36,573 nt of DNA from Bacteroidales bacterium (GTDB taxonomy: Bacteria; Bacteroidota; Bacteroidia; Bacteroidales; Marinilabiliaceae), in assembly GCA_017539645.1 (NCBI GenBank), contig JAFYCM010000087.1, positions 1 to 36,573 on the forward strand, given 5' to 3'. Below the pieces are notes generated by a model, which made no database searches, was not told the DNA's origin, and was given only the letters and a program-made list of their open reading frames with translations. Below, in pieces: positions 3,077 to 32,998 of this stretch (position 1 is the stretch's first letter; every line of letters begins with the position of its first letter). The translations under genes were made by a program, and so were the position numbers.

Positions 3077-6000
3077 ATGAAAAAGGTTTTTGTATACATA
3101 TCCATACTCGCGGCTTGCATAACAACAAAAGCACAAGACAAGGTGACGCACGACGCGATGCAAAAAATTTACGACGAAGTGCGCACGCCATATAAATATG
3201 GTATGGTGATAGTGCCGCAGGACAATGGGCACAAGATTGACTGCCCGACAGTCTTCCGCAAAGACGGACGTTGGTATATGACATACGTATGCTACAACGG
3301 GCATGGCGGCACCGACGGGCGAGGCTACGAGACGTGGATTGCTACGAGCGACGACCTCTTGCATTGGCAAACTGAAGGACGCGTGCTCGAATACTCCAAC
3401 GACACAGCCTCGTGGGATGCCAACCAACGCGGCGGTTTCCCGGCTCTCATAGATATGAATTGGGGCGGAAGCTACGAAATTGGCACCTACAAGGGCAAAC
3501 ATTACATGACCTACATAGGCGGCCACGGCAAAGGCTACGAGGCTGTGTACGAGCCACTTTCGATAGGAGTAGCTACTACAAACGATAATATCACAAAACC
3601 TTGGAGCGCAGCCATCAAGCCACTCATGCGCTACGACGATAAAGATGCGCAGTGGTGGGAACGCCTCACGCAATACAAAAGCACCATATACAGCATCGAC
3701 AAAAAGATATTTGGCTATCCGTATATGATGTTCTACAACGCAGGCGGCAAAGACGCTACGCACCCCAAAGGCGAACGCATAGGCATAGCGCTGAGCAAAG
3801 ACATGAAGAAGTGGAAACGCTACAACGGCAACCCCGTTTTTGCCCACGACACCGATGGCACTATCACTGGCGATGCTCAAATAGTAAAGATGGACAATCT
3901 ATGGGTGATGTTCTACTTCTCGGCATTCAACCCCGAGCGCGAATACAATGCATATAACACATTTGCCGTCAGCCGCGACCTTGTGCATTGGCAAGATTGG
4001 GACGGCGAAGACCTTATCTATCCGTCGAAACCATACGACGAGATGTTTGCCCACAAAAGCTATGTGGTGAAGTGGCAGGGCGTGGTTTACCATTTCTACT
4101 GCGCGGTGAACAATTCGGAGCAGCGCGGAATAGCCGTAGCTACAAGTAAACACATGGGACAAAGCGAATTGCACTTCGTTGCGCCCGATGCCAAGGGTCA
4201 CAGAACAACTCAGAGCCTCAACGACGATTGGCAGATTGAGTTTGGCGGTAAAAAATTCTCACACTCCATACCCATAAACCTCGACGACTACTACGGTGCA
4301 CGTCAGCTTGTGCACGGCAATCTGCACGGCGAAGCTACATTCACGAAGCATTTCGTTGCTCCCGATAAAGGCGAGAAAGAATATTTTCTAAATATCGAAG
4401 GCATAGGTACTTACGCAGACATTACGCTCAACGGCATACATATAGGTAAGTATGATGTAGGCCGACTGACTAAGGTTGTAGATATTACAAACGCAGTGAA
4501 GAAAGACGCAGAAAATGAGCTCGTTATACATGTGTCGCATCCATCGGGAATAACAGATATGCCATGGGTATGCGGCGGTTGCAGTTCGGAATGGGGCTAC
4601 AGCGAAGGCTCGCAGCCGTTTGGCATCTTCCGCCCAATAACTCTTGAAATCACCGACAAAGTGCGCATTGAACCATTTGGCGTTCACGCATGGAGCAACG
4701 CACTGACTGATAGCATATTTATAAATACAGAAATAAAAAACTACGACAGCGAAGAGGCGACATTTAGCCTCATAAATAAGCTCTGCGATAAGAGCGGCAA
4801 ACAGGTCGTTCGACTTACGGAGAACGTAATGCTCAAGGCTGGCGAAACGAAGACTATTCATCAGTGTGCACGCGTTGAAAATGTGCATCTGTGGAGCGTT
4901 GAGAATCCATATTTATATAATGTAAATACCATAATAAAACGCAACGGCAAAGCCACCGAGAGCACCAACACAGCCTTCGGATTCCGCACCATAAGTTGGC
5001 CAAAGACACGCAACGACGGCGACAAACGTTTCATACTCAACGGCAAGCCAACATTCATAAATGGCGTTTGCGAATACGAACACGAGTTTGGGCAAAGTCA
5101 CGCGTTTAGCAACGAACAGATAAAAGCGCGTATCAAAGAGACCATCAGCGCAGGCTTCAACGCCTTTCGCGATGCGCATCAACCACATAACTTACTATAT
5201 GGCAAGTTGATAGAAGAGAATGGATTACTTTGGTGGCCACAGTTTTCGGCGCACATCTGGTACGACACGCCGGCATTCCGCGAGAGCTTCAAACGCCACT
5301 TGCGCCAATGGATCAAGGAGCGCCGCAACTCGCCAAGCGTCATTCTTTGGGGCTTGCAGAACGAGAGCACACTTCCTCCCGACTTTGCCCGCGAATGCAC
5401 CGAGATAATTCGTGAAATGGATCCAACGTGCGGCAGTCAGCGCTTAGTAACAACTTGCAACGGCGGCGAAGGGTCGGACTGGAACGTGGTGCAGAACTGG
5501 AGCGGCACGTATGGCGGCAACATAGATAACTACGGCAACGAACTGAAAGACGATGCTCAGCTACTCAACGGCGAATATGGCGCGTGGCGAACTGTTGGCA
5601 ACCACACTGGCAATGGCTACACCGAAGAGAAGTTTTGCGACATACTTAGCAAGAAAATCGACCTTGCAGAGAGCGTTCGTGATAGCGTTTGCGGTCAGTT
5701 TCAGTGGTTACTTGTCAGCCACGACAACCCCGGTCGTAAGCAACCCGACGAAGGTTTACGCCGAATAGACAAGGTTGGACCTTTCAACCACAAAGGCATT
5801 TTCAGCATCTGGGAGCAGCCGACCGACGCTTTTTATATGTATAAAAGTAAGTACGTATCGGCTGATAGAGAGCCGTTTGTATATCGAACAAAATCAGGTA
5901 TCGTCTATACCAATTGTCCACAGACAAGAGTCCGTCTGAAAGGCAATGTGGAATACATCGACGGACTTTTAGAAGGCAATGTGGTTTGTACCTACAAACG

Positions 6001-7018
6001 TCTCACCGCTGGTGAACTAACCGATGATGACCTTCTTCAACCCAAGAGTGGTGTTGCCTACACACATCGCATTAATTGCGGTGGCGACCGATACACGGAC
6101 GCGTGGGGTAATGAGTGGACTGCCGATGATAGTCTTATTTGTCACTCTTGGGCTAACGATTTTGATGGCATGAATGCCTACAGCGCAAGTCAGACTGCCG
6201 ACTACGATATGCCAGTCTTGCCACTTTTTCAGACCTCGCGCTATGGTCGGCACAGAATGAGCTACAAAGTCGCAGCACCCAAGGGTACTTATCGCGTTGA
6301 GCTATATTTTGTAGAGCCATGGTATGGCAATGGAAGTGGCGAAAAAGCCGACTACGAAGGCTGGCGAACGTTTAGTGTCGCAATAAACGGAAACATCGTG
6401 GTACGTAATCTTGACATTTGGGCGCAAGCTCATTATGGCAAACCATATAAACGTGTCGTTGAAATAGTCAACGAACAAGATAGCATAGAAATATCATTCC
6501 CAGAAGTGCGTAGCGGACAGGCTATTATTAGTGCTATAGCCATTGCTCGCATGCCAGAGACTCCTGGTGGTTGGTGGCAAAACCTTGATAAACTCGAGCG
6601 TATAGGAAAGCAGTCTATCGAGTATGGTTTCTGGCACATTGCCGAAAATGACACCATTACCAAAATGCCCGACAATCTGTTGCCACCACGTGCCGACAAC
6701 TCGCTTAAAGTGAGTGGTAAGAAAACTCGGAAAGGTATGCAATGGACCTTTACCGTAGGCGTAGCTAAAATCTATGCCATTCGTTGGCGTTATCACAATG
6801 CTGAGGCTCCGCGCAAGTTGCATGTAACGTTGTCAGACCAAAATGGCGTTATCTACAAAGACGACGATGTAAGTTTCCTACAGACGCAAAAGAAAATCAC
6901 CAAGCGCAAGATGACGAGCATAACCACCGGAAACTTCATAAACGCTGGCACTTACACGCTTACGCTCACAGGCGAAGGCATTCAGAAAATGACATTTGAC
7001 GAACTAACAATAGAATGA
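3077..7018 (+). CDS. Two-module hydrolase: GH137-like beta-propeller plus GH2 beta-glucuronidase type, with malectin-like domain
   Basis: A 1313-residue secreted enzyme. A signal peptide ends at A-Q (residues 19-20). Residues 25-370 form a five-bladed propeller-like region with repeated strands such as CPTVFRKDGRWYMTY; E159 and E233 are candidate catalytic acids. A GH2 enzyme follows: sugar-binding domain (about 378-525), Ig-like domain (530-640), and TIM barrel from 650 with acid/base E763 in WGLQNES and nucleophile E833 in LLNGEYG. A malectin-like carbohydrate-binding domain lies near 1000-1160. This architecture is that of B. thetaiotaomicron BT0996 (from memory), which joins a beta-L-arabinofuranosidase (GH137) to a beta-D-glucuronidase (GH2) for RG-II side chains B and A. 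Activities here are inferred from that likeness. The stop codon overlaps the next ATG (ATGA), so translation is probably coupled. Confidence 0.8.
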   Translation: MKKVFVYISILAACITTKAQDKVTHDAMQKIYDEVRTPYKYGMVIVPQDNGHKIDCPTVFRKDGRWYMTYVCYNGHGGTDGRGYETWIATSDDLLHWQTEGRVLEYSNDTASWDANQRGGFPALIDMNWGGSYEIGTYKGKHYMTYIGGHGKGYEAVYEPLSIGVATTNDNITKPWSAAIKPLMRYDDKDAQWWERLTQYKSTIYSIDKKIFGYPYMMFYNAGGKDATHPKGERIGIALSKDMKKWKRYNGNPVFAHDTDGTITGDAQIVKMDNLWVMFYFSAFNPEREYNAYNTFAVSRDLVHWQDWDGEDLIYPSKPYDEMFAHKSYVVKWQGVVYHFYCAVNNSEQRGIAVATSKHMGQSELHFVAPDAKGHRTTQSLNDDWQIEFGGKKFSHSIPINLDDYYGARQLVHGNLHGEATFTKHFVAPDKGEKEYFLNIEGIGTYADITLNGIHIGKYDVGRLTKVVDITNAVKKDAENELVIHVSHPSGITDMPWVCGGCSSEWGYSEGSQPFGIFRPITLEITDKVRIEPFGVHAWSNALTDSIFINTEIKNYDSEEATFSLINKLCDKSGKQVVRLTENVMLKAGETKTIHQCARVENVHLWSVENPYLYNVNTIIKRNGKATESTNTAFGFRTISWPKTRNDGDKRFILNGKPTFINGVCEYEHEFGQSHAFSNEQIKARIKETISAGFNAFRDAHQPHNLLYGKLIEENGLLWWPQFSAHIWYDTPAFRESFKRHLRQWIKERRNSPSVILWGLQNESTLPPDFARECTEIIREMDPTCGSQRLVTTCNGGEGSDWNVVQNWSGTYGGNIDNYGNELKDDAQLLNGEYGAWRTVGNHTGNGYTEEKFCDILSKKIDLAESVRDSVCGQFQWLLVSHDNPGRKQPDEGLRRIDKVGPFNHKGIFSIWEQPTDAFYMYKSKYVSADREPFVYRTKSGIVYTNCPQTRVRLKGNVEYIDGLLEGNVVCTYKRLTAGELTDDDLLQPKSGVAYTHRINCGGDRYTDAWGNEWTADDSLICHSWANDFDGMNAYSASQTADYDMPVLPLFQTSRYGRHRMSYKVAAPKGTYRVELYFVEPWYGNGSGEKADYEGWRTFSVAINGNIVVRNLDIWAQAHYGKPYKRVVEIVNEQDSIEISFPEVRSGQAIISAIAIARMPETPGGWWQNLDKLERIGKQSIEYGFWHIAENDTITKMPDNLLPPRADNSLKVSGKKTRKGMQWTFTVGVAKIYAIRWRYHNAEAPRKLHVTLSDQNGVIYKDDDVSFLQTQKKITKRKMTSITTGNFINAGTYTLTLTGEGIQKMTFDELTIE

Positions 7019-13068: not shown

Positions 13069-13091
13069 TGTTATGAAAAGCAGCGTATCAA

Positions 13092-13208
13092 ATCACCGAA
13101 TAGAACGAAAATATACTAACATAATTCGTTTCGTTCGTAGTAAGATGGAAATGCTTATAATTGAACGATTTACTAATTGCAATTTCGTTTCATTCGTTCA
13201 ATTAGGTG
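13092..13208. repeat. Long imperfect inverted repeat before the GH106 gene
   Basis: The left arm at 13092-13109 (ATCACCGAATAGAACGAA) pairs imperfectly with the right arm ATTCGTTCAATTAGGTG (13192-13208). The right arm ends 2 bp before the GH106 start codon. Related copies fill 16319-16490. The repeat happens to stay open in the GH106 frame, which produces a false 46-residue N-terminal extension. Confidence 0.7.
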
Positions 13209-13210
13209 TT

Positions 13211-16200
13211 ATGAAAAAACATTACTTGGCAACGTTTGTGGTTGCTGTAATGTCTTTATTTACAGCGTGTAGCAGCAATACGTGGCACGACGATTTTCGC
13301 CAAGCAAAATGCGAAGTCGAGCCTTGGACATTCTGGTATTGGATGTATGGCAACGTAAGTGACGATGGCATCAGAGCAGACCTAAAAGCCATGAAAGAGG
13401 CTGGCATAGAAGGGTTTTATCTGATGCCGATAAAGAGTCCGGCAGACAACGCTCAACTTGGTGGCACGGCATTGCAGCTCTCGCCCGACTGGTGGAACAG
13501 AATGCGCACCGTGGTTACCATTGCCGACAGTCTACATCTTCAAATGGGCATTCACTTCTCCGATGGTTTCGCCCTCGGCGGTGGTCCGTGGATTACGCCC
13601 GACGAGTCGATGCAAAAGGTCGTTTGGTTCGACACCATAGTTAGTGGAGGCAACATAGATATGGAGCTACCACTACCTAAGCATTATGCTGATTACTACG
13701 AAGATATAGCTACGTATGCATACCAGACTCCATTCGCCAACGACATAAAACCGTCTACCGACACGCAATTTCCACTAAAGTCGAAAGAGCCTTGCGATAT
13801 TGTATACAAGTATGCAGAGCCATTCACACTTCGCAGCGTTCAGATTGTCACTGGCGGCAACAATTACCAAGCGCACCGCTGGACGGTAAGTTCTTCCGAC
13901 GATGGCAAGATCTATAAAGAGATAACTCGCATAGAGCCAGCACGTCAAGGGTGGCAAAACACCGATGCATACGCTACGTACGCCATACCTACCACTACAG
14001 CTAAATATTTCAAATTTCACTGGACGCCTGAAGGAAGCGACCCTGGAAGCGAAGACATGGACGCCGCCAAATGGAGTCCTACGCTAAAAGTGGCAGCCAT
14101 AAACCTTGGTTCAGAACCTATTGTAGATGGCTACGAGGGCAAAAGTGGCGCAGTGTGGCGCGTTAGTAAGGCATACATAGATAAAAACAACGAAGCTATC
14201 GATGCTAAATCGTTGAGATTTATCGATATAAATAATAATAGAATAGAGACTGTGCTTCCTGAAGGAGAGTGGCACATCATACGTATGGGTCACACATCGA
14301 CGGGACACACCAATGCCACAGGCGGAGGTGGACGCGGTTTGGAATGCGACAAATTCTCCATTGCTGCCATCGACAAACAATTCAATAGTTGGTTTGGCAG
14401 CATCGATTCTATGACGCAGACAATCTCGAGCGACGTACTTACGCGCCTGCATGTGGATAGCTGGGAATGTGGCAGCCAGAACTGGAGCAAGAATTTCGCG
14501 GCAGAATTTCAGCGTCGTCGTGGCTACGACCTTTTGCAGTGGTTACCCGTATATGCAGGAGTTCGACTCGAGAGCGAAACCAAAAGCGACGCTGTCTTGC
14601 GCGACATACGCCAAACAATAGCCGAGCTCATCAACGATGTGTTTTTCGTCGAAGTGCGACGCCTTGCCGATGCTAACCACAAGCAACTATCTACGGAGTG
14701 CGTATGTCCTACGATGGTTAGCGATGGCATGCTCCACTTTGCCAAAGCCGACTATCCGATGGGCGAATTTTGGGTAAACAGTCCTACGCACGACAAGCCC
14801 AACGACATGCTCGACGCCATCAGCGCGGCTCATATCTATGGCAAACGCACCATACTTAGCGAAAGCTTCACCGAAGTTCGCGGCACGTGGGACGAGACTC
14901 CCGCTATGCTGAAACCGCTTCTCGACCGAAACTTCGCTCTGGGCATCAACGGCATTGTGTTTCATGTATATACGCACAACCCATGGCTCGACCGCAAACC
15001 AGGCATGACACTCGACGGCATTGGCACCTTCTTCCAACGCGACAACACTTGGTGGCGCGAGATGCCGGCGTTCACCGAATACATAAACCGTTGCCAATCG
15101 CTGCTACAACGCGGCACGCCAGTGGTCGACATTGCTGTATATACGGGCGACGAGACGCCACGCCGCGCCATTTTGCCCGAACGCCTGACGTCGTCGCTGC
15201 CGGGACTCTTTGGTGAGCAGATTCTCAAAAGCGAACGCGCACGCTGGCAAAACGAGGGCGTACCTATGGAGACGAGCCCTGTAGGTGTGAAACATACGCG
15301 AAACATGACCAAAGCCGATCTCTTCACCAATCCTTTGCATGGCTATAAATATGACTCTATGAACCACGATGCGCTTGCCTCGGCACACGTAGAGAATGGC
15401 GCGATAGTCACCGCTGGTGGAATGCGCTACGAAGTGCTTGTGGTGCCGCAAGAGCGCAAGATGAACCCCGACCGCATTGTGGATTGGGACCTCATTGAAA
15501 AACTCAAAGCACAGGGCGCGAGAATCATCAGCGAGCCGTGGACAGAGCCGACACTCAGCAGCATTGATATTGAGCCTGACGTGCAAATTTGCAAAGGCGC
15601 TGACTTCACGCATCGCCGAACTGGCACCGAGGATATTTACTTCATTGCCAACTTGACGGACAGCGCCATAAATATGAAGCCTACTTTCCGCTCAGCAAGT
15701 GTATATAAGTATGCATACGTAGCTAATCCACTGAATGGTAGCATCTTCGTATACAACAATGAACTAAATTTGGAGGCAAACGAATCGGCATTTGTAATAT
15801 TTACGAACGAAAAAATTGCCGTCGACAAACTACAGTCGGCAACGACCAGCATAACCATAAATACGCCATGGAGTGTTGCGTTCGAGAGTGCCGACACAAC
15901 AATAGCTATGGATATTCTACGCGATTGGTCTACTTACGACGAGCCTAAACTGAAATACTATTCTGGCCATGCTACGTATGAGAATAGTTTCGACGCAGGC
16001 CGCTCTGTTTCTGGTGCATACATACGTATAGAAGGACTGCACGACATAGCTACGATATATGTAAACGACAAATGCTGCGGCACAATATGGACAAAGCCGT
16101 ACATTACAGATATAAGCAACGCCATCCGTAGCGGCAAGAACACGCTTCGCATCGAAGTGGTGAATACGTGGGCTAATGCGCTGCTCGGTAGCGATATAAA

Positions 16201-16306
16201 TACGCCTCCATACAGCGGCATTTGGACCAATGCCAAATATCGTCGAGCCGAGAAGAATACGCTTCCAGCGGGAATTGTTGGCAAAGTGGAGGTCGTGTTA
16301 GAGTGA
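13211..16306 (+). CDS. GH106 alpha-L-rhamnosidase, lipoprotein
   Basis: A 1031-residue lipoprotein: MKKHYLATFVVAVMSLFTAC gives a clean lipobox at C20. I chose the ATG at 13211 because of this signal; the frame is open back to 13073, but those 46 codons run through repeat DNA. Residues 38-140 contain the family's opening pattern FWYWMYGNVSDDGIRADLKAM and HFSDGFALGGGPW. The C-terminal ~130 residues form a galactose-binding-like beta-sandwich. GH106 enzymes release alpha-L-rhamnose from pectins, and one (BT0986, from memory) acts on RG-II side chain B. Family call is good; the exact linkage is inferred from the neighbours. Confidence 0.85.
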   Translation: MKKHYLATFVVAVMSLFTACSSNTWHDDFRQAKCEVEPWTFWYWMYGNVSDDGIRADLKAMKEAGIEGFYLMPIKSPADNAQLGGTALQLSPDWWNRMRTVVTIADSLHLQMGIHFSDGFALGGGPWITPDESMQKVVWFDTIVSGGNIDMELPLPKHYADYYEDIATYAYQTPFANDIKPSTDTQFPLKSKEPCDIVYKYAEPFTLRSVQIVTGGNNYQAHRWTVSSSDDGKIYKEITRIEPARQGWQNTDAYATYAIPTTTAKYFKFHWTPEGSDPGSEDMDAAKWSPTLKVAAINLGSEPIVDGYEGKSGAVWRVSKAYIDKNNEAIDAKSLRFIDINNNRIETVLPEGEWHIIRMGHTSTGHTNATGGGGRGLECDKFSIAAIDKQFNSWFGSIDSMTQTISSDVLTRLHVDSWECGSQNWSKNFAAEFQRRRGYDLLQWLPVYAGVRLESETKSDAVLRDIRQTIAELINDVFFVEVRRLADANHKQLSTECVCPTMVSDGMLHFAKADYPMGEFWVNSPTHDKPNDMLDAISAAHIYGKRTILSESFTEVRGTWDETPAMLKPLLDRNFALGINGIVFHVYTHNPWLDRKPGMTLDGIGTFFQRDNTWWREMPAFTEYINRCQSLLQRGTPVVDIAVYTGDETPRRAILPERLTSSLPGLFGEQILKSERARWQNEGVPMETSPVGVKHTRNMTKADLFTNPLHGYKYDSMNHDALASAHVENGAIVTAGGMRYEVLVVPQERKMNPDRIVDWDLIEKLKAQGARIISEPWTEPTLSSIDIEPDVQICKGADFTHRRTGTEDIYFIANLTDSAINMKPTFRSASVYKYAYVANPLNGSIFVYNNELNLEANESAFVIFTNEKIAVDKLQSATTSITINTPWSVAFESADTTIAMDILRDWSTYDEPKLKYYSGHATYENSFDAGRSVSGAYIRIEGLHDIATIYVNDKCCGTIWTKPYITDISNAIRSGKNTLRIEVVNTWANALLGSDINTPPYSGIWTNAKYRRAEKNTLPAGIVGKVEVVLE

Positions 16307-20146: not shown

Positions 20147-20234
20147 TCGCACAGAGAACACAGATGACACAGATTTTATAGGATTCAAAGGATATAAATA
20201 TCTGTGTCAATCCGTTTCATCTGCGTCATCTGCG
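20147..20234. repeat. CACAGATGACAC-type inverted repeat
   Basis: The left arm contains CACAGATGACACAGAT and the right arm ATCTGTGTCA followed by CATCTGCGTCATCTGCG. The best stem is TGACACAGAT (20165-20174) with ATCTGTGTCA (20200-20209). It belongs to the same family as the words at 297-311, 1578-1592 and 22982-22996. On the plus strand it stays open in the GH78 frame and would add a false leader to that protein. Confidence 0.75.
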
Positions 20235-20269
20235 TTCATAATAAGATAAATAACAGACATTTAGTACGT

Positions 20270-22972
20270 ATGAAAATAACCGCCGTCCTTGTTTGTATAG
20301 GCATATTTATAAGTATGCAAGCAGAGGCAAAAATCCGCATCGAAAACCTATCGTGCAACGGACAACACGAAACGGCCGTGGCTACAGGAGAGCTCAATCT
20401 GCATTGGCAAATCATAGCCGATAAAGATGAGCCAACCGACGCGCTTAACTACGAGATAACTATCGTAGATGGTAGCGATGGCAAGACTGTTGCACTACGC
20501 AAGACTGCCATGCTCGAATATGGGTGTCAAAGCGTAGCTATCGATTCTGGCGCGTTGGCGTTCAACCCTTCGGGATATATATGGAGCGTGAAAGCTACGT
20601 ACGCGAACGGCAAATCGGCAGGCAAATGTGCTACTGGACAGAAGCTATTCATTGTACCCACTGAAAATGCTTTCGGCAATGCCAAATGGATTGGCGCCAT
20701 AACTAAAGCCGATGCCAATATTCCCGATGGACGATGGAGCAACAGCGATTTCAAAAAAGAGAGCTTCAAAAACGCTTGGGCGAACACCCGAACCGACATT
20801 TGCAGCCGCAGCATAACAGTAAACAAGACCTTCAAAGTGAATGCTCCAAAAATCAACGGCGCATTACTACTTATCTGTGGTTTAGGGCATTACGATTTAT
20901 CAATAAACAACAAACGCGTAACCGACAACATCTTTGCGCCACTCTGGAGCGAATATGACAAGACTGTCTATTACAATGTTTACGACGTACGTAACTTTTT
21001 GAAAACCACCGAAAACAATATTTCTGTAAAGCTCGGCAACGGCTTTTTCAACGTCATTCGTGGAGAACGCTACAGCAAGTTGCAAGCCTCGTTTGGTGCG
21101 CCACAGATGATAGCTCGTCTCATAATTAGTTATACCGATGGCAGCACTCAAGAGATATGCACTGGCGAGAATTGGTCGTATGCATTCAATGCCATCACTT
21201 TCAATAGTATTTATGGCGGCGAGAGCTACGATGCCACGCTCGAAGAGGCGCCCGAGATGCATCGCGCGGTGCTCACCGAAGGTCCACGCGGCACGCTCAC
21301 GCCACAGACAGCTCCGCCTATACGTATTATGGAACGCTACGGCGTGAAGAAGTGGCTCGACGTAGACAAAAACCAACTTGCAGAGGCTTCCAAGAAGACA
21401 AAACGCGAGATAGCGCCATCGGTGAAAGTGGCCGACATGGGGCAAAACCACGCGGGCTTTCCTCAGATAAAGGTGAGAGGCAAGCGCGGACAAAAAATCA
21501 CGCTCGTGGTTAGCGAAAACCTCAACGACTTCGGCGTGTGCGACCAGCGTCAAATTGGACGTCAGCATTTCTATGAATACACGCTCAAAGGCAGTGGCGA
21601 AGAGACGTGGCACCCGCTATTTTCATATTATGGATATAGATACATACAGGTGGAGGGCGCGGCGCTCAAAGGCGAAGCCAATCCCGACAACCTACCAGTG
21701 CTCAACGACTTGCAGAGTTGTTTTGTGTACTCCTCGGCAAAAGAAGTTTCAACCTTCGAATGCGACAACGAGATTTTCAACGTTGCCCATCGACTGATAG
21801 AGCGCGCCGAACGTAGCAATATGCAAGCTGTGCTGACCGACTGTCCGCATCGCGAGAAACTTGGTTGGCTCGAGCAAGACCACCTCTGCGGTCCTTCGCT
21901 TCTGATGAACTTCGACATGGAGGCGTACGTACCCAAAATAATCCGCGACATAGCCGACACGCAAAAAGAGAGCGGAATGGTGCCCACCATTGCACCACAA
22001 TATGTGTCGTTCGGCAACCTCTTCGACGATTCGCCCGAATGGTCGGCTACGCTCATTGCTTTGCCTTATATGTATTACGAACGCAATGGCGATGACGCAC
22101 TGCTACGCGAGTATTATCCAGTGATGCTCAAATACTTAGACTACTTGCAAAGTCGTGCGCGCTTTGGCATTCTCGACTACGGCTTAGGCGATTGGTACGA
22201 CTACGGACCTTGGAAAGCTGGTTTTTCGCGCAACACGCCCATTGCTCTTGTGGCTACGGCGCACTACATACTTAGTTTGCAACAGATGCTACAAATAGCT
22301 ATGATTCTCAATAAAAATGCTGACATCGAACGTCTTGCACTTCTTGCTGCATACGTAATTGAGGCCTTCAACGCAGAATTTTACCACGCCGATTCGTGCT
22401 ATTATGGTACGAATAGCCAGACGAGCAATGCCTTGCCGCTATTCCTTGGCATAGCTATGAATCCAGATGGCGTGATGAAGAACCTCGTAGCAGATATCGA
22501 AAAACATGGCAACCGACTGACAACTGGCGACGTGGGCAACAGATACCTTTTTCAAGTTTTGGCTCGCAACAACCAAAACGAACTTCTATACAAAATGTTC
22601 AACCACAACGAGACGCCAGGCTACGGATTCCAAGCACTCCAAGGTGCTACCACGCTCACCGAGCAGTGGGATCCACGCCAAGGAGCTTCGTGGAACCATT
22701 TTATGATGGGGCAAGTGGACGAGTGGTTTTTCGGCACGCTCGCGGGTATTGGTCAGGCAGAGGGCAGCGTAGGTATGCAACATCTTGTCATCAAGCCCAC
22801 TTTGCCCGGCGACATGAAACGCGTGCATGCCAAAACCGAAACTAAATATGGCACGGTGGAGGTTACGGCAACCAACGAAAAAGTTACCGTAAGTATTCCG
22901 TATGGCTGCGATGCCGAGATAATTACACCTCGCGGAAGCCATTCTGTAACGCATGGTACATATACATTTTAG
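20270..22972 (+). CDS. GH78 alpha-L-rhamnosidase
   Basis: A 900-residue secreted enzyme. The ATG at 20270 starts a normal signal peptide (MKITAVLVCIGIFISMQAEA); the frame is open back to 20204, but that part is repeat DNA. The domain order fits bacterial GH78: an N-terminal fibronectin-like domain (about 25-130), beta-sandwich domains (150-480), then an (alpha/alpha)6 barrel from about 490 with the signature TDCPHREKLGW (523-533) and a C-terminal beta-domain. GH78 enzymes remove alpha-L-rhamnose from pectin. In RG-II, rhamnose caps side chain C (Rha-Kdo) and decorates chain B, so the locus would need more than one rhamnosidase; the GH106 is the other. The linkage is not readable from sequence. 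Confidence 0.87.
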   Translation: MKITAVLVCIGIFISMQAEAKIRIENLSCNGQHETAVATGELNLHWQIIADKDEPTDALNYEITIVDGSDGKTVALRKTAMLEYGCQSVAIDSGALAFNPSGYIWSVKATYANGKSAGKCATGQKLFIVPTENAFGNAKWIGAITKADANIPDGRWSNSDFKKESFKNAWANTRTDICSRSITVNKTFKVNAPKINGALLLICGLGHYDLSINNKRVTDNIFAPLWSEYDKTVYYNVYDVRNFLKTTENNISVKLGNGFFNVIRGERYSKLQASFGAPQMIARLIISYTDGSTQEICTGENWSYAFNAITFNSIYGGESYDATLEEAPEMHRAVLTEGPRGTLTPQTAPPIRIMERYGVKKWLDVDKNQLAEASKKTKREIAPSVKVADMGQNHAGFPQIKVRGKRGQKITLVVSENLNDFGVCDQRQIGRQHFYEYTLKGSGEETWHPLFSYYGYRYIQVEGAALKGEANPDNLPVLNDLQSCFVYSSAKEVSTFECDNEIFNVAHRLIERAERSNMQAVLTDCPHREKLGWLEQDHLCGPSLLMNFDMEAYVPKIIRDIADTQKESGMVPTIAPQYVSFGNLFDDSPEWSATLIALPYMYYERNGDDALLREYYPVMLKYLDYLQSRARFGILDYGLGDWYDYGPWKAGFSRNTPIALVATAHYILSLQQMLQIAMILNKNADIERLALLAAYVIEAFNAEFYHADSCYYGTNSQTSNALPLFLGIAMNPDGVMKNLVADIEKHGNRLTTGDVGNRYLFQVLARNNQNELLYKMFNHNETPGYGFQALQGATTLTEQWDPRQGASWNHFMMGQVDEWFFGTLAGIGQAEGSVGMQHLVIKPTLPGDMKRVHAKTETKYGTVEVTATNEKVTVSIPYGCDAEIITPRGSHSVTHGTYTF

Positions 22973-23117: not shown

Positions 23118-26100
23118 ATGCATAAATTACTTATAACAACATTACTATCAGCGCTTTTCGTAGTAGGCGCGATGGCGCAAGAATATTTTGTATCCACCTC
23201 GTTTCACGAGCCAGCAACCGATGGACTACGCTTCATCTATAGCACCGACGGTTTGCGATGGGATACCATTCAAGGCACCTTTCTGATGCCCGAAGTGGGC
23301 AAACAGAAAGTCATGCGCGACCCGAGCATCGCAGTGGGCGCCGATGGCACGTTTCACCTCGTGTGGACCAGCAGTTGGCGTGGCGACCGCGGTTTTGGCT
23401 ACTCTTCGTCGAAAGACCTCATACACTGGGAGAAGCAACGCTTCATTGAGGTTATGCCCGACACCAACACTGTCAACGTGTGGGCGCCAGAGCTCTTCTT
23501 CGACGACGAGAAGAAGCAATTCCTGATTGTTTGGGCTTCGTGCATTCCGGGCAAATTTCCCGATGGTCAAGAGGATCACAAGAACAATCATCGTCTGTAC
23601 TATACCACCACTAAAGATTTCAAGAAGTTTGCCCCAACGAAACTCTTCTACGATCCTGGTTTCAGCTGCATCGACGCCACAATTGTCAAGCGCGGCAAAG
23701 GCGACTACGTGATGGTGGTGAAGGACAACACGCGCCCAGAGCGTAACATAAAAGTTGCGTTTGCCTCTTCGCTCTACGGACCATGGAGCAAGGCGTCGGA
23801 GCCGTTCACTGCCAACTTCACCGAGGGCCCAAGTACGGCTAAACTCGGCGATTTCTGGTATATATATTACGATAGTTATGGTTCGAAAACCTACGGAGCT
23901 CACAAAACCAAAGATTTCAAGAAGTTTTGGAATCAGGCTGGCGACGTGCATTTCCCCGTTGGTCACAAGCACGGAACGGTTTTCAAGGCTTCGAAGCAAA
24001 TCATCGATGCACTCAAAGGCTACAACCGCGATGTGATACACTACACTGGTAAAGATGTTGCCACACCCATTCGCCACGACGGCGGTCTGCGTCCAACGGT
24101 TGGCGTACATAATATCCAAACTATGCGCGGCGAACGTCCTTGGACCTACAACCATCAGCCGATGATGGTCTACTGGAATAATAAATTCTGGATTAGCTAC
24201 CTCACCGACCCTCGCAGCGAGCACGAAGCACCTGGCAAGACCATGTTGCTCACTTCCAACGATGGCTATTCGTGGAGCGAACCTTCGGAACTCTTCCCAG
24301 AATACAACGTGCCCGATGGATTCACCAAAAAGACTTGGCCGGGCGTAGTAGCCAAAAATCTAAAAGCTATTATGCATCAACGCGTTGGATTCTATGTATG
24401 GCGCAGTGGTGCTAAAGAGAAACTTCTGGCTATAGGCAACTACTGCGTTGCTTTAACTCCTAAAGACGACCCTAACGACGGCAACGCCATAGGTCGCGTG
24501 GTTAGAGAGGTGAAAGCCAATGGCGAACTTGGGCCTATTTATTTTATATACTACAACCACGACTTTAGCGAAAAGAATACCGATTACCCATATTACAAAA
24601 AGTCGAAGGACAAAGATTTCATCAAGGCTTGCGAAGCTCTTCTTGCCGACCCGCTGCAACGTATGCAATGGGTGGAAGAGGCCGACCGCAACGACAAAAT
24701 AATTCCACTGAACAAGCCTTACAAAGCATTCTGCTACTACACTTTGCCCGATGGTCGCGTGGTGTCGTTGTGGAAACATGCGCTAACGAGTCTCAGCAGC
24801 GATGGCGGCAACACGTGGCGCACTCCAGTCTATCGCGCGCCCGGCTTCGTAAATAGCAATGCTAAAATCTGGGGACAACGCCTCAGCGATGGTACTTATG
24901 CCACGGTATACAATCCGTCGGAATATCGCTGGCCGCTTGCCATAAGTCTTAGTGGCGATGGCCTTGAGTATACTACGCTGAGCCTTATAAATGGTGAGGT
25001 CACTCCACTTCGCCATGGCGGTAATTACAAGAGCTACGGCGCTCAATACACACGCGGCATTCAAGAGCACAATGGCTCATCGATAGACAAAAATCTTTGG
25101 GTTACATATAGTAATAATAAAGAAGACATTTGGATTAGCCGCATTGCTGTGCCCGTAGCTACTACGGCTTCGCGCCATGCCAACGAGAATTTTAGTACGT
25201 ATAAAAAACTCTCCGACATGACCGAGTGGAACATCTACTCGCTTCTTTGGGCTCCCGTCAGCCTCGATGGCGCTTGGCTAGAGCTGCAAGACAAAGACCC
25301 ATACGACTATGCCAAAGTGGAACGCGTGATTCCTGCCACCGAAAACCTGCGCGTGGAGTTTGACGTCGTTGCCGAACAAAACAACTTTGGCGTTTTGCAT
25401 ATCGAGTTTGCCGACGACAAAGGCAACGTATGTAACAGAATCGTTATCGACTCCATTGGTAAGATTTCGGTAAAAGGTGGTGCGCGCTATGGCACAATAG
25501 CAAAAGAGTTCAAGGCTGGTCAGAAGTATCACCTTGCAGCAATCATAAATACCAAGTTGCACCAATCCATTTTCTACATCGATGGTCAGAAGGCATGCAC
25601 GCGCATGTTCGACACACCCGTTGAGAATATCACGCGCATAATATTCCGCACTGGCGACCTCTTCCTCGAGCCTAATATCGAGACGCCAGCCGACCAAGAT
25701 TTCGACATGCCACGCGCCGACGAGCAAGACCGAAACGCGGTGTACAGAATTGCAAACCTCACCAGTCGCAGTATCGACAACAACGGCGCTGGCTGCGTGC
25801 TCAACTATCGCGACTTTGCACATTATGCCAACTACTTCAACACTATGGAAGAGGAGACTCTCCCAACCGACATCTCCAATGCCCAAGCGTCGGAGTGGAT
25901 GGCTGAGAACATTCCGCTCTTCGACTGTCCGCAAGACAATTTCCGCGAGATGTACTACTTCCGTTGGTGGTCGCTGCGCAAACATATCATACGTACGCCA
26001 GCGGGCTACGGCATGACCGAGTTCATCGTTAAGCGTAGTTATGCCGACCTCTACAACCTCATCGCTTGCGCCATTGGCCACCACGTGATGGAGATGCGTT

Positions 26101-27257
26101 GGGCGCGCGACACTACATACCTAAACCAAATAATTCGCACGTGGTATTATGGCAACAACGGCAAGGCGATGAACAAGATGAACAAATTCTCATCGTGGAA
26201 TCCTGCGGCTATCTACGAAGCGTGGAAAGTCAATGGCGACACGGCATTTTTGCTCTCGTTGCGCCAACGTCTGACCGAAGAATATGACCGTTGGCAATCG
26301 ACAAACCGACTCGAGAGTGGTCTCTATTGGCAAGGCGATGTTCAAGATGGTATGGAGGAGAGCATCTCGGGCGGCCGCAAGAAGAAATTTGCTCGTCCTA
26401 CCATAAATAGTTATATGTATGGCAATGCCAAAGCCCTCGAAGCCATTGCGCTCCTCGTGGGCGACAAGCAGAGCGCCGAAAAATATGCTAAAGATGCAGC
26501 CGAGCTCAAGTCGCACATCACCAACAAACTGTGGAACAGCGAACAAAACTTCTTCGAGACTATGCGCGGCGACACACTTGCCAAAGTTCGCGAGGCTATT
26601 GGCTATATACCTTGGTACTTCAATATTCCAGACGATAATAGTACGTACGATGCAGCTTGGCAGCAACTCACCGACCCGAAAGGCTTCAGCGCGCCATACG
26701 GATTGACAACCGCCGAACGACGTCACCCACTATTCCGCAGTCACGGTTTCGGCAAATGCGAATGGGACGGCGCTATCTGGCCTTTCGCTACAAGCCAGAC
26801 ACTCACGGCACTTGCTAACTACCTAAACGACTACAGCCACACAGCTCTCACCGACAGCGTATTCTTCCGTCAGATGGAGCTCTACGTAGAGAGTCAGCAC
26901 ATGCGCGGCCGCCCATACATAGGCGAATACCTCGACGAGACTACAGGTTATTGGCTTATGGGCGATCGCGAACGCTCGAAATACTACAACCACTCCACCT
27001 TTGCCGATCTTGTAATCACGGGCATTGTTGGTGTGCGTCCTCAAGCCGATGGCAGCGTGGTTGTTAATCCGCTCATTCCACAAGACAAGTGGAACTATTT
27101 CTGCCTCGATGGAGTTAACTATCACGGACACTCGCTCACCATTGTTTGGGATAAAGATGGCCAACGCTATCACCGCGGCTCGGGCTTGTCGATTTTTGTC
27201 GATGGCGTGAAACGCGCAAATCGCAAGGATTTGGGAAGCGTGAAATGTGAATTGTGA
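23118..27257 (+). CDS. Three-module hydrolase: GH43-like propeller, GH143-like propeller, GH142-like barrel
   Basis: A 1379-residue secreted protein; the signal peptide ends at A20-Q21. Residues 22-310 form a GH43-like five-bladed propeller with the expected three acids: D68 in MRDPS, D186 in IDATIV and E236 in TEGPS. Residues 320-690 form a sialidase-like propeller with Asp-box sequences (SNDGYSWSEP, SSDGGNTWRTP), fitting GH143. A concanavalin-like domain lies at about 700-860. Residues 895-1330 are an (alpha/alpha)6 barrel fitting GH142. In B. thetaiotaomicron BT1020 (from memory) GH143 and GH142 are joined and remove DHA and beta-L-arabinofuranose of RG-II side chain D. The extra N-terminal module could act on an alpha-L-arabinofuranose nearby. 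Module boundaries are approximate, and no activity is proven. Confidence 0.75.
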   Translation: MHKLLITTLLSALFVVGAMAQEYFVSTSFHEPATDGLRFIYSTDGLRWDTIQGTFLMPEVGKQKVMRDPSIAVGADGTFHLVWTSSWRGDRGFGYSSSKDLIHWEKQRFIEVMPDTNTVNVWAPELFFDDEKKQFLIVWASCIPGKFPDGQEDHKNNHRLYYTTTKDFKKFAPTKLFYDPGFSCIDATIVKRGKGDYVMVVKDNTRPERNIKVAFASSLYGPWSKASEPFTANFTEGPSTAKLGDFWYIYYDSYGSKTYGAHKTKDFKKFWNQAGDVHFPVGHKHGTVFKASKQIIDALKGYNRDVIHYTGKDVATPIRHDGGLRPTVGVHNIQTMRGERPWTYNHQPMMVYWNNKFWISYLTDPRSEHEAPGKTMLLTSNDGYSWSEPSELFPEYNVPDGFTKKTWPGVVAKNLKAIMHQRVGFYVWRSGAKEKLLAIGNYCVALTPKDDPNDGNAIGRVVREVKANGELGPIYFIYYNHDFSEKNTDYPYYKKSKDKDFIKACEALLADPLQRMQWVEEADRNDKIIPLNKPYKAFCYYTLPDGRVVSLWKHALTSLSSDGGNTWRTPVYRAPGFVNSNAKIWGQRLSDGTYATVYNPSEYRWPLAISLSGDGLEYTTLSLINGEVTPLRHGGNYKSYGAQYTRGIQEHNGSSIDKNLWVTYSNNKEDIWISRIAVPVATTASRHANENFSTYKKLSDMTEWNIYSLLWAPVSLDGAWLELQDKDPYDYAKVERVIPATENLRVEFDVVAEQNNFGVLHIEFADDKGNVCNRIVIDSIGKISVKGGARYGTIAKEFKAGQKYHLAAIINTKLHQSIFYIDGQKACTRMFDTPVENITRIIFRTGDLFLEPNIETPADQDFDMPRADEQDRNAVYRIANLTSRSIDNNGAGCVLNYRDFAHYANYFNTMEEETLPTDISNAQASEWMAENIPLFDCPQDNFREMYYFRWWSLRKHIIRTPAGYGMTEFIVKRSYADLYNLIACAIGHHVMEMRWARDTTYLNQIIRTWYYGNNGKAMNKMNKFSSWNPAAIYEAWKVNGDTAFLLSLRQRLTEEYDRWQSTNRLESGLYWQGDVQDGMEESISGGRKKKFARPTINSYMYGNAKALEAIALLVGDKQSAEKYAKDAAELKSHITNKLWNSEQNFFETMRGDTLAKVREAIGYIPWYFNIPDDNSTYDAAWQQLTDPKGFSAPYGLTTAERRHPLFRSHGFGKCEWDGAIWPFATSQTLTALANYLNDYSHTALTDSVFFRQMELYVESQHMRGRPYIGEYLDETTGYWLMGDRERSKYYNHSTFADLVITGIVGVRPQADGSVVVNPLIPQDKWNYFCLDGVNYHGHSLTIVWDKDGQRYHRGSGLSIFVDGVKRANRKDLGSVKCEL

Positions 27258-28159: not shown

Positions 28160-29458
28160 ATGAGGAAATACGTAATTATCGGTTTGCTTTTCTGCGCCTT
28201 TACCACGGCAAGTGCGCAGAGCTACGACACCAAATTTGCACGTCCGCTTTCGGAGGTGATAAAGAACATCGAAGCGCGTTTCGGCGTTCGACTGAAGTGC
28301 AGCGATGTAGATACCACAGGCATCATTCTTAATTATGCCGACTTTCGCATTCGTCCATACTCACTCGAAGAGACGCTGCAAAATGTGCTCGCGCCGTTCG
28401 ACTTCAAAGCCGTAAAGCAGAACGATAAACTTTATAAGGTTAAGAATTATGAGTATGCACGCCGTACGCCTGCCGATGGGCAGAAACTTACCGACTATCT
28501 ACTTACGCTCAGTCCCGATAGCGCATCGTGGGAGGCTCGTCGGGCGCAACTGAAAAAGGAGGTTCGTGACATACTTAATATCGATGCTCTGCTTGCGCAA
28601 TGCTCCACCGAGTCACCACAAGTGAGCAAGATTCGTAAGCACAACGGCTATACCACGCAGAATTTCTGTATGCAGACGCTGAATGGTCACACTGTTAAGG
28701 GCACTATTTATGCGCCGAGCAGCAAAGGCAAGCATCCGCTAATAGTTTGCCCGAACGGACATTTCTTGAACGGTCGCTACGGCAAAGTGCAGCAACTTCG
28801 TTTGGGTACGTTGGCGCGCATGGGAGCCATCTGTATCAGCTACGACCTTTGGGGCTGGGGCGAGAGTGCCGATGAGGTTGGCGCCGCAGCTCATCGCACC
28901 GACACGGCTCACGTGATGCAAGCTATCAACGGACTAAAGATCCTCGATTGGGCATATAAATTCAAAAATGTCGATACCGAGCGCGTGGCTGTGAATGGAG
29001 GTTCGGGCGGTGGCTCGCAGTGTGTACTACTTGCATTGCTCGATGACAGATTTACTGCGGCATGTCCTGTGGTTAGCGTCTCGTCGTGGTTCGATGGTGG
29101 CTGCCCGTGCGAGAGTGGCAAACCCATTCAACTTGCTTGCGGCGGCACTTGCAACGCCGAGCTTATGGCGACGTTCGCTCCACGTCCGCTGATGCTCGTC
29201 AGCGATGGCGGCGACTGGACAAGCTCTACGCCCGAGGTGGAATATCCTTTCATTCAGCATTTTTATAAATATTATGATGCCGAACAAAACGTAACCAATA
29301 TTCACCTACCTAACGAGCGTCACGACTTCGGAGAAAACAAGCGCAATGCGGTATACGAGTTCTTCGGCAACGTGTTCCACTTAGACACCTCCAAGGTGGA
29401 CGAATCGCTCGTAGATATTGAAAGCGAAGATGCGCTTAGGTGGGAAAAGAAAAAATAG
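28160..29458 (+). CDS. Alpha/beta-hydrolase esterase, likely BT1017-type pectin methylesterase, with STN-like N-terminal domain
   Basis: A 432-residue secreted esterase; the signal peptide ends at A-Q (19-20). Residues 28-97 look like a small STN/DUF4974-type domain (SLEETLQNVLAPFDFKAV followed by LYKVK), unusual on an enzyme. The alpha/beta-hydrolase domain spans about 170-420, with nucleophile S282 in NGGSGGGSQ, a candidate Asp at 352 and H388 in NERHDFG. Acetyl-xylan esterases and the RG-II methylesterase BT1017 have this fold; the neighbours make a BT1017-like methylesterase, which would unmask the RG-II backbone, the better guess. The ATG lies 3 bp after the ORF6N stop codon, indicating coupling. 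Confidence 0.72.
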   Translation: MRKYVIIGLLFCAFTTASAQSYDTKFARPLSEVIKNIEARFGVRLKCSDVDTTGIILNYADFRIRPYSLEETLQNVLAPFDFKAVKQNDKLYKVKNYEYARRTPADGQKLTDYLLTLSPDSASWEARRAQLKKEVRDILNIDALLAQCSTESPQVSKIRKHNGYTTQNFCMQTLNGHTVKGTIYAPSSKGKHPLIVCPNGHFLNGRYGKVQQLRLGTLARMGAICISYDLWGWGESADEVGAAAHRTDTAHVMQAINGLKILDWAYKFKNVDTERVAVNGGSGGGSQCVLLALLDDRFTAACPVVSVSSWFDGGCPCESGKPIQLACGGTCNAELMATFAPRPLMLVSDGGDWTSSTPEVEYPFIQHFYKYYDAEQNVTNIHLPNERHDFGENKRNAVYEFFGNVFHLDTSKVDESLVDIESEDALRWEKKK

Positions 29459-29532
29459 AACCATATTTTTGCGATTGAGAATCAATAAGTTGTTCTATAT
29501 GCAATTGTCTTGAATCTTAGAATTCGGAGAAT

Positions 29533-30345: not shown

Positions 30346-30368
30346 TAAAGTATTACTAACTAAAAACA

Positions 30369-32810
30369 ATGACAACAAGACAAATATTAACCGCGCTGCT
30401 GTTGGTGTTCGCTGCGTCGGCTATGGCGCAGAATCAGCATAATCTTTGGTACGACCAGCCAGCGCAGATGTGGACCGAGGCGCTACCTATTGGTAACGGA
30501 CATCTTGGTGCCATGGTCTACGGCACGCCAGCCAACGACCGCCTACAACTCAACGAAGAGACTATCTGGGCGGGTCGTCCGAATAACAACGCCAACGCCG
30601 AAGCTCGTGAATGGCTTCCTAAAATCCGCGAAATGGTTTGGAATGGCGAGTATCGAAAAGCGCAAGACGCTGCCACTGCTCATGTGCAAAGCAACACTAA
30701 CCATGGCATGCCGTATCAACCTTTTGGCGATTTATACATAACATTCGCTGAGCACAACAACTACACAAACTACTCGCGAACGCTCAACCTCGACTCGGCG
30801 TATGCCACAACTACATATAAAGTTGGCGATGTTACATACGTACGTAGATACATAGCTTCGCTTGCCGAAAATACCGTCTGCATACAACTCAGCGCCGACA
30901 AGTCAGAAAGCATCACGTGCAACCTCTCGCTCACTTCACCTCATAGCGATGTTGGTCTTCGCTCAGAAGGCGACCAGATTGTGCTTAGCGGCATAACCTC
31001 GAACCACGAAGGTTTGAAAGGCAAAGTGCAGTTCACAGGACGTGTGAAGGCGGTAACCAACGGCGGTTCGGTTACATCGCGCGATGGAGTAATAAGTATC
31101 GCTAATGCCAACGAAGCCACTATATACATAACTATAGCCACCAACTTCGTCAACTACCACGACATAAGTGCCAACGACACCGTGCGCTCACTCGAAGCAA
31201 TGCAACGCGCGTCGGCTGTGCCTTTCGACAAACTCTTCAACAGCCATATAAATAACTACAAAAAATACTACGACCGCGTGCAGCTCAACCTCGGCGAGGA
31301 TATTTATGCCAACGAGACTACCGATATGCGCGTAGCAAAATTCAAGACTCGCCCCGACTTGCACCTCATCGAGACTTATTTTCAGTTCGGACGCTACCTA
31401 CTTATCTCGTCGTCGCAGCCTGGTTGCCAACCACCAACGTTGCAAGGCATCTGGAACGACAAGATGTTTCCGTCGTGGGATTCTAAATATACCACCAACA
31501 TCAACCTCGAGATGAACTATTGGCCGGCCGAAGTAGCCAACTTGAGCGAACTCACCGAACCGCTGCTAAAACTCATCAAGGAGGTTAGCAAGACAGGTCA
31601 CGAGTCGGCGCGTATTATGTATGGTGCAGATGGTTGGGTGCTTCATCACAACACTGATATTTGGCGAGTTACTGGCGGCATCGACAAAGCACCTTCGGGG
31701 CTCTGGCCTACTGGTGGCGCGTGGATGTGCCAACACATCTGGGAACACTATCTATATAGTGGCAACAAAGATTTCCTCCGCGAAGTTTATCCTACCATGG
31801 AGGGCGCAGCGCGTTTCTTGAACCAGATTATGGTGCGCGAGCCTAAGAATAATTATTGGGTGATATGCCCGAGCCTCTCGCCCGAGAATGCACACCCAGG
31901 CAACGCCACTACAGCAGCAGGCGTGACAATGGACAACGAACTCGTGCGCGACCTCTTCAACCACGTAATCAGAGCCACGCAGATTCTCGGTATAAATAGC
32001 TCGCTTACCGACAGTTTGAAAGACAAACTTGCAGGCCTACCGCCCATGCAAATTGGCAAATGGGGACAGCTACAAGAGTGGCTCGACGATTGGGATAATC
32101 CCAACGATAACCATCGCCACGTGAGCCATCTCTATGCGCTCTATCCGAGCAACCAAATTACACTCGAGGGCACACCAAAACTTGCCGAAGCTGCCAAAAC
32201 TTCGCTTATCGCGCGTGGCGACCCATCGACGGGTTGGAGCATGGGTTGGAAAGTTTGCCTCTGGAGCCGCCTACACGACGGCGACCATGCCATGAAGCTC
32301 ATCACCGAACAACTCACCCTTGTGCGCAACGAGAAGAAGAAAGGTGGTACTTATGCCAACCTCTTCGACGCACACCCACCATTCCAAATAGATGGCAACT
32401 TCGGCTGTGCGGCAGGCATTGTCGAGATGCTTCTCCAAAGCCACGACGGCAAAGTATCGCTTTTGCCTGCATTACCAACTTCGTGGAAGAGCGGCGAAGT
32501 GAAAGGTCTGAAGGCGCGTGGCGGTTTCATTGTAGATATGCAGTGGAAAGGTGGCAAACTACATCGCGCTGTGGTGACGTCGACCAATGGCGGCAACTTG
32601 CGCATAGCGTCGGCCGTGCCACTCAAAGGCAAAGGACTAAAGAAAGCCAAAGGCGCCAATAGCAATCCTATTTACGCCCTCGATGCCGCACCCGCCGAAA
32701 AAATTAGCAATCCGGATGCCGTGCATAAAACTATAAATAGCGAACCGACGTACCTCTACGACATTGCTACCAAAGCTGGCCAGACGGTAATTTTGGAAAG
32801 TAAAAAGTAA
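30369..32810 (+). CDS. GH95 family hydrolase, probable alpha-L-galactosidase
   Basis: An 813-residue secreted enzyme; the signal peptide ends at A20-Q21. It has the GH95 layout: N-terminal beta-domain (about 22-270, opening LWYDQPAQMWTEALPIGNG), helical linker, (alpha/alpha)6 barrel (330-690) and C-terminal beta-domain. The catalytic set of the family is present: N377 and N379 in TTNINLEMNYW, E506 in SLSPEN and D675 in FQIDGNFG, equivalent to N421, N423, E566 and D766 of Bifidobacterium AfcA. Position 375, two before the first Asn, is Thr; AfcA fucosidase has His there, and Thr has been linked to L-galactose preference. RG-II side chain A ends in alpha-L-galactose on glucuronic acid, which fits. 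The end of the gene lies in a heptad array. Confidence 0.85.
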   Translation: MTTRQILTALLLVFAASAMAQNQHNLWYDQPAQMWTEALPIGNGHLGAMVYGTPANDRLQLNEETIWAGRPNNNANAEAREWLPKIREMVWNGEYRKAQDAATAHVQSNTNHGMPYQPFGDLYITFAEHNNYTNYSRTLNLDSAYATTTYKVGDVTYVRRYIASLAENTVCIQLSADKSESITCNLSLTSPHSDVGLRSEGDQIVLSGITSNHEGLKGKVQFTGRVKAVTNGGSVTSRDGVISIANANEATIYITIATNFVNYHDISANDTVRSLEAMQRASAVPFDKLFNSHINNYKKYYDRVQLNLGEDIYANETTDMRVAKFKTRPDLHLIETYFQFGRYLLISSSQPGCQPPTLQGIWNDKMFPSWDSKYTTNINLEMNYWPAEVANLSELTEPLLKLIKEVSKTGHESARIMYGADGWVLHHNTDIWRVTGGIDKAPSGLWPTGGAWMCQHIWEHYLYSGNKDFLREVYPTMEGAARFLNQIMVREPKNNYWVICPSLSPENAHPGNATTAAGVTMDNELVRDLFNHVIRATQILGINSSLTDSLKDKLAGLPPMQIGKWGQLQEWLDDWDNPNDNHRHVSHLYALYPSNQITLEGTPKLAEAAKTSLIARGDPSTGWSMGWKVCLWSRLHDGDHAMKLITEQLTLVRNEKKKGGTYANLFDAHPPFQIDGNFGCAAGIVEMLLQSHDGKVSLLPALPTSWKSGEVKGLKARGGFIVDMQWKGGKLHRAVVTSTNGGNLRIASAVPLKGKGLKKAKGANSNPIYALDAAPAEKISNPDAVHKTINSEPTYLYDIATKAGQTVILESKK

Positions 32811-32901: not shown

Positions 32902-32967
32902 GGGTATATATAAGAGGTTATAAAGAGTGTGCCGTCAGTCTACTCTGCGCGAGTTGTTCAATTTTCT

Positions 32968-32975
32968 TATTTTTG
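32968..32975 (+). promoter_or_regulatory. Possible -7 box for the PorW/SprE-like gene
   Basis: TATTTTTG fits TAnnTTTG and would start transcription near 32982, shortly before the ATG at 32999. No TTTG is present at the right -33 distance. It comes after the terminator, where a new promoter is expected. Confidence 0.35.
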
Positions 32976-32998
32976 CCTTGGCAATGTCCTCTACTAAA

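Follow-up and report, generated by a model that had tools for sequence, protein, structure and literature searches.

An RG-II locus of a Bacteroidales bacterium with a GH43 module fused to a GH143-GH142 enzyme of the BT1020 type

The DNA analysed here, hereafter the window, is a stretch of 36,573 nucleotides from a Bacteroidales bacterium (contig JAFYCM010000087.1 of assembly GCA_017539645.1). Its forward (+) strand, to which all coordinates below refer, carries at 23118..27257 an open frame with an ATG start that encodes a fused GH43-GH143-CBM-GH142 protein of 1379 amino acids. Residues 1-20 (23118..23177) form a signal peptide, judged by eye and against relatives to be of the ordinary type without a lipobox. 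There follow a BT1021-like GH43 module (residues 21-300; 23178..24017), recognized by Pfam, alignment and fold comparison; a linkerless junction (residues 301-306; 24018..24035), which lacks both the stop codon and the GH143 signal peptide of the separate genes; and a GH143 propeller module (residues 304 to about 690; 24027..25187). Beyond these lie a sialidase-like CBM domain (residues 704-860; 25227..25697; PF22585, 182.5 bits), a GH142 barrel module (residues about 881-1300; 25758..27017) and a C-terminal GH65C-like domain (residues 1310-1363; 27045..27206; PF03633, 36.7 bits). In a Pfam scan of the full-length protein the BT_1020-like propeller (PF24067) is found at 306-534 and the MGH1-like barrel (PF22422), here GH142, at 979-1293, and both modules are further delimited by alignment with PDB entry 5mqr. 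This evidence confirms the three fused catalytic-type modules that a preliminary description had read from the same frame; the borders found here, about 21-300, 304-690 and 881-1300, deviate slightly from those it proposed, and it had left the CBM unnamed. The whole window gave no Rfam matches at gathering scores.

The neighbouring genes provide a functional context. Upstream are a BT0996-like multidomain GH2 gene (3077..7018; 553.9 bits to 5mt2 over residues 2-373), 5mt2 being listed among the structure matches under the name BT_0996; a GH106 alpha-L-rhamnosidase (13073..16306; PF17132, 431.3 bits; 5mqm, 1101.8 bits); and a GH78-type rhamnosidase (20204..22972; PF17389, PF08531 and PF05592). 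The last gene carries the family label GH78, and the BT0996-like neighbour the label GH137. GH2-type genes are also found near the fused gene, and downstream of it lies a GH95 gene (30369..32810; PF22124, 583.2 bits). Between the two is a BT1017-like pectin methylesterase (28160..29458) that lacks the DUF3826 part and whose residues 17-426 match residues 23-432 of 6goc with 587.8 bits, a structure identified as BT1017 in a passage of PMC7939467. These neighbours are RG-II enzymes, and the region is an RG-II locus.

The greater part of the protein corresponds to BT1020, the GH143-GH142 enzyme of Bacteroides thetaiotaomicron (PDB 5mqr/5mqs). Residues 304-1378 match positions 25-1104 of 5mqr (1108 aa) with 1621.7 bits when the whole sequence is used, and residues 881-1379 match positions 610-1104 with 780.7 bits; both catalytic modules and the CBM occur in the order of BT1020, and the GH142 regions are 65% identical. 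In the GH142 active site E968 (26019..26021) stands opposite position 694 of the 5mqr chain, and Glu694 is the putative catalytic residue of BT1020 according to a part of PMC7263609. Four other residues of this site given in that part of the paper (Tyr, Gly, Trp and His) are places where the 5mqr chain and the window protein agree, at chain positions one below the published numbers; this offset is counted as a caveat to our best explanation of the protein.

Two differences set the window protein apart from BT1020: a signal peptide specific to the GH143 part is missing, and 283 residues (GH43) that are absent from BT1020 stand in front of that part. Because BT1020 has no counterpart of residues 21-303, the additional N-terminal module is real. 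Both modules resemble beta-propellers, and residues 20-310 might for that reason be taken as the ordinary N-terminal portion of a GH143 enzyme; this is exceedingly improbable, as the match to BT1020 starts at residue 304, which refutes the idea for BT1020 itself, and as the N-termini of the 16 separate GH143 genes viewed by eye each show a signal peptide just ahead of the equivalent of residue 304. The preliminary description had itself named a normal GH143 part, or a lack of similarity to GH43, as what would undo its reading; these residues are instead absent from BT1020 and GH43-like by both Pfam and fold.

When residues 21-303 are scanned alone, PF04616 (Glyco_hydro_43) is matched with 34.3 bits (cut-off 32.2), whereas the scan of the full-length protein lists PF22847 (BT_3657-like_N; 30.1 bits, cut-off 27) in its place. 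The propeller of the module resembles solved GH43 enzymes, and the three acids characteristic of such enzymes, D68 (23319..23321), D186 (23673..23675) and E236 (23823..23825), or positions 48, 166 and 216 of the excised module, lie exactly where they had been reported. They are identical in 125 of 125 compared rows, a set that counts the window's own row, includes 81 fused rows and excludes duplicate loci and the truncated L061. By analogy with GH43 in general, we presume that they act as catalytic base, pKa modulator and catalytic acid, respectively.

The closest characterized counterpart is indicated by genome G514, whose BT1020 copy is near-identical to 5mqr over the part of the alignment inspected. 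The frame directly upstream of this copy, which shares its strand, encodes a GH43 protein (PF04616, 39.1 bits) and, from its position, should be BT1021; the separate GH43 gene that the preliminary description had placed next to BT1020 was thus located. BT1021 may belong to subfamily GH43_18. The window's module is about 60% identical to the G514 gene over 280 residues; it scores 73.1 bits with the NCBIfam alpha-arabinofuranosidase model, far under the cut-off of 500. This identity, together with the gene neighbourhood, suggests a BT1021-like specificity, and BT1021 is described in a portion of PMC7939467 as an alpha-arabinofuranosidase that takes arabinose off chain F of RG-II.

A change of function is conceivable all the same. 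The fused module may no longer be a chain F arabinofuranosidase and may either hold the substrate or cleave another sugar. Fused modules diverge from separate ones at seven positions of GH43, which makes a shift in specificity possible, and at six of the seven (T240 is the exception) the fused residue is absent from the nearest unfused genes, L065, L179, L196 and L185; moreover, the genome encodes a second, related GH43 module (45%) that is fused to GH35. Yet each of the 81 fused rows among the 125 retains all three acids, the 60% identity to the BT1021-type gene extends over 280 residues, and two genomes with the fused gene (G795 and G873) have no second match at E<=1e-100, although this carries little weight, as scoring was limited to two candidates in each genome. 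On these grounds we consider such a change improbable.

We searched 71 genomes of the window's family, 393 of its order and, from the family of G233, another 399. A set of 126 deduplicated loci has GH43 and at least one of the two other modules; counts among these loci are not prevalences, and the scan that gave organism names covered the best 80 of 576 relatives. GH43 and GH143 share one frame in 81 of the 126, and in 78 of these the frame includes GH142, a few being ended by the contig inside it; in L105 the frame is broken within GH142, whereas L131 and L170 end at a contig edge before it. GH43 is a frame of its own upstream of a GH143-GH142 gene in another 37 loci, and in the remaining 8 GH43 and GH143 are each their own frame with GH142 in neither (in L071 and L078 it lies outside the stretch retrieved). 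The gene-fusion reading of the preliminary description is supported. As GH43 is found elsewhere before either a GH143-GH142 gene or separate GH143 and GH142 genes, the window's gene would represent the last step in a series that may have passed from three genes to two and then to one.

Some long frames (1427 to 1489 aa) were candidates for further fusions, but the loci concerned, in G031, G076, G177, G233, G483, G635 and G674, have separate frames, and the long frames were therefore left out of the fusion count. The frame pattern in G703, also outside the count, is like that of these seven genomes. A 1439-aa frame of G423 carries GH143-GH142 without GH43.

At the junction, GH43 ends with a stop codon in the separate loci that we viewed, and a signal peptide precedes the start of GH143; their genes are divided by a short intergenic stretch or overlap slightly, and 64 to 210 nt lie between the matched domains. 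In the fused genes, by contrast, the C-terminal helix of GH43 passes directly into the first GH143 residues (in the window, ...DALKGYNRDVIHYTG), and there are two junction styles that differ in length by about one residue. Loss of an intervening stop codon through an assembly or sequencing artefact could mimic a fusion, and in L064 the two genes do lie in one frame, separated by a single stop codon and a short gap. For the window this is hardly credible: the GH143 signal peptide is missing as well, comparable junctions occur in 80 of the best 80 of 576 relatives, isolates included, and recurrence of the fused frame in G055 (98%), G057 (72%) and further assemblies excludes an assembly error of this genome. 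An AlphaFold2 model of residues 21-879, made with 20 fused rows, reached a pLDDT of 69.3 and a pTM of 0.54, values at which the orientation of GH43 relative to GH143 is not readable.

The fused arrangement is widespread. All of the best 80 of the 576 relatives, that is, the loci most like the window's, join GH43 to GH143 in one frame; 78 of the 80 have a GH142 match in the same frame (L105 included), and 77 have titles that name Prevotella, Prevotellaceae, Xylanibacter or Marseilla, the exceptions being L099 and L100 (Bacteroidales of the window's genus) and L147 (Candidatus Equicola). Ruminant hosts appear in many of the titles. The isolates Prevotella pectinovora, Xylanibacter caecicola, X. 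rarus and Marseilla massiliensis carry the fusion and, like those of many MAGs, these Prevotellaceae proteins have their modules in one frame with a junction similar to that of the window. The surroundings are also alike: among the best 80 of 576 loci (matches above 120 bits, some loci being cut by contig ends) the same esterase accompanies 62 and GH95 56, and Prevotellaceae fused loci are flanked by these two genes as the window's is, whereas in Bacteroides-type loci and in the smaller of the two fused clades described below it is mostly a GH78 gene that follows.

Because it is common in the Prevotellaceae, the fusion is not peculiar to this genome. Within the family of G233, 40 of the 399 sampled genomes have a match at E<=1e-100 (two candidates scored per genome); among these 40, G717, G795 and G873 were shown to be fused. 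Of 149 genomes in G233's genus, 45 have a match to a BT1020-type protein at E<=1e-60, some of them partially; none of the frames listed there exceeds 1282 aa, and GH43 is a frame of its own in all 20 loci retrieved. The window's genus has the fusion in three of 15 genomes searched (G000, G055 and G057), and in two other genomes of its family (G031 and G051) the genes are separate. None of the titles and abstract openings listed from open-licence PMC mentions the triple fusion, and CAZy or PULDB may already list the module string. The finding, a fused form of known enzymes that is common in the Prevotellaceae, is sound but modest.

The most probable account, in which we have considerable confidence, is that the window protein is a GH143-GH142 enzyme of the BT1020 type with a BT1021-type GH43 alpha-L-arabinofuranosidase fused in front, that it belongs to an RG-II utilisation locus and that it is exported, with activities against chains D and F. 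On chain D, the action of GH142 precedes that of GH143. Its ordinary signal peptide would take the protein out of the cytoplasm, in all likelihood into the periplasm, to act on RG-II fragments: the GH142 module would remove the terminal beta-L-arabinofuranose from side chain D and the GH143 module would next remove DHA from the galacturonan backbone (activities listed in part of PMC7761036, that of GH142 also in part of PMC7263609), and the GH43 module would take the alpha-1,3-linked arabinofuranose off chain F. All three modules are likely active, and fixed dosage and co-localisation are possible benefits of joining them. The pectin RG-II is among the most complex of plant polysaccharides, and its breakdown is known from one species in which these enzymes are made separately. 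A natural three-enzyme fusion, which couples the steps of BT1021 and BT1020, opens no new enzyme class; it provides a ready test of whether joining helps, and suggests that RG-II use in gut and rumen Prevotella is organised otherwise than in Bacteroides.

Whether the fusion arose once or twice was addressed by phylogeny. A combined tree of the three modules comprised 57 rows: 20 in a larger fused clade, 9 in a smaller one and 28 separate. A single fused clade is rejected (AU p 0.0139), the fused rows requiring two changes. Among unfused rows, L185 lies nearest to the large clade, and L065, L179 and L196 lie nearest to the small clade. In trees of individual modules (54 rows, L060, L068 and L069 being dropped), a single fused clade is rejected by GH142 (p 0.00021) but not by GH143 (p 0.064), and GH43 groups the fused rows with an uninformative support of 26. 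Residues common to both fused clades, defined as present in at least 85% of each and in at most 15% of the separate genes, number 7 in GH43, 3 in GH143 and 2 in GH142, and identity crosses over near the junction. The seven shared GH43 residues and this crossover suggest a mosaic, in which the GH43 part was perhaps passed on by recombination. Tested directly, GH43 does not reject a GH142-like grouping (p 0.319) and does not favour such recombination over two fusions. Since GH142 rejects one fused clade and GH43 leaves it open, a single fusion spread by recombination and two separate fusions are both plausible.

The 57-row tree places the window's copy within the larger fused clade, in a set of 12 rows that has an SH-aLRT support of 98, and well away from L062 and L063, the unfused copies of its own family; in a 105-row tree built with a simpler model it lies within the fused clade at no supported place. 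Its genome bears family code f1, as against f59 for the fused-gene genomes G717, G795 and G873, and here, unlike in Prevotellaceae fused loci, an ORF6N gene comes after the fused gene. The position in the 57-row tree points to a transfer of the gene from a Prevotella-type lineage.

We tentatively offer a broader scenario, which is plausible but less likely than not. Joining BT1021 and BT1020 may have produced one soluble periplasmic machine that clears chains D and F off the RG-II backbone, with an advantage that let the arrangement originate or spread more than once, there being two fused clades that do not form a single clade in GH142; a copy would have crossed a family border into a rumen lineage, and GH43 would have lost its lipid anchor on the way. 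The separate BT1021-type genes mostly have a lipoprotein signal, in contrast to the ordinary signal peptide of the window's fused module: counted as a sequence pattern, a lipobox is found near the module in 40 of 44 separate GH43 genes; of the fused genes, the smaller clade has it in 0 of 10 and the larger clade in 9 of 71. The nine matches lie within the hydrophobic core and are probably not true lipoboxes; a looser count gives 41 of 46, 1 of 10 and 10 of 75, respectively.

In the window, the BT1017-like esterase gene and the GH95 gene are separated by a gap of approximately 920 bases (29437-30356), and this gap is occupied by a KilA-N domain gene (29533-30345). The corresponding gap in L099, a fused-gene locus from the same genus, is only 119 bases long; the sequences flanking the gap in the two loci are 96.2% identical on one side and 93.7% on the other. 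The KilA-N gene, which matches the phage transcriptional-regulator family phrog_2657 with 197.3 bits, is present in a single copy in the window's own genome (E<=1e-5).

In the window, the fused gene is followed first by an ORF6N gene (27284-28156) and then by the esterase gene, whereas in those Prevotella loci that have a BT1017-like esterase, the esterase mostly follows soon after the fused gene. The ORF6N gene is also found in L099, and it has two relatives (51% and 45%) within the window's genome. The esterase itself (28160-29458) is 432 aa long, and its match to BT1017 stops near the point where the DUF3826 domain of BT1017 would be expected to start (PMC7939467).

The RG-II locus also encodes a DUF5703-domain protein of 729 aa (17949-20138). 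After the GH95 gene comes a gene for a 932-aa protein (32927-35725) with weak TPR matches only, which, at a guess, may be a regulator. Elsewhere in the same genome, a 1007-aa frame (L059:675-3698, on G000:C96) joins a GH43 module to a GH35 domain; this module is of the same kind as that of the fused gene, with 44-45% identity between them.
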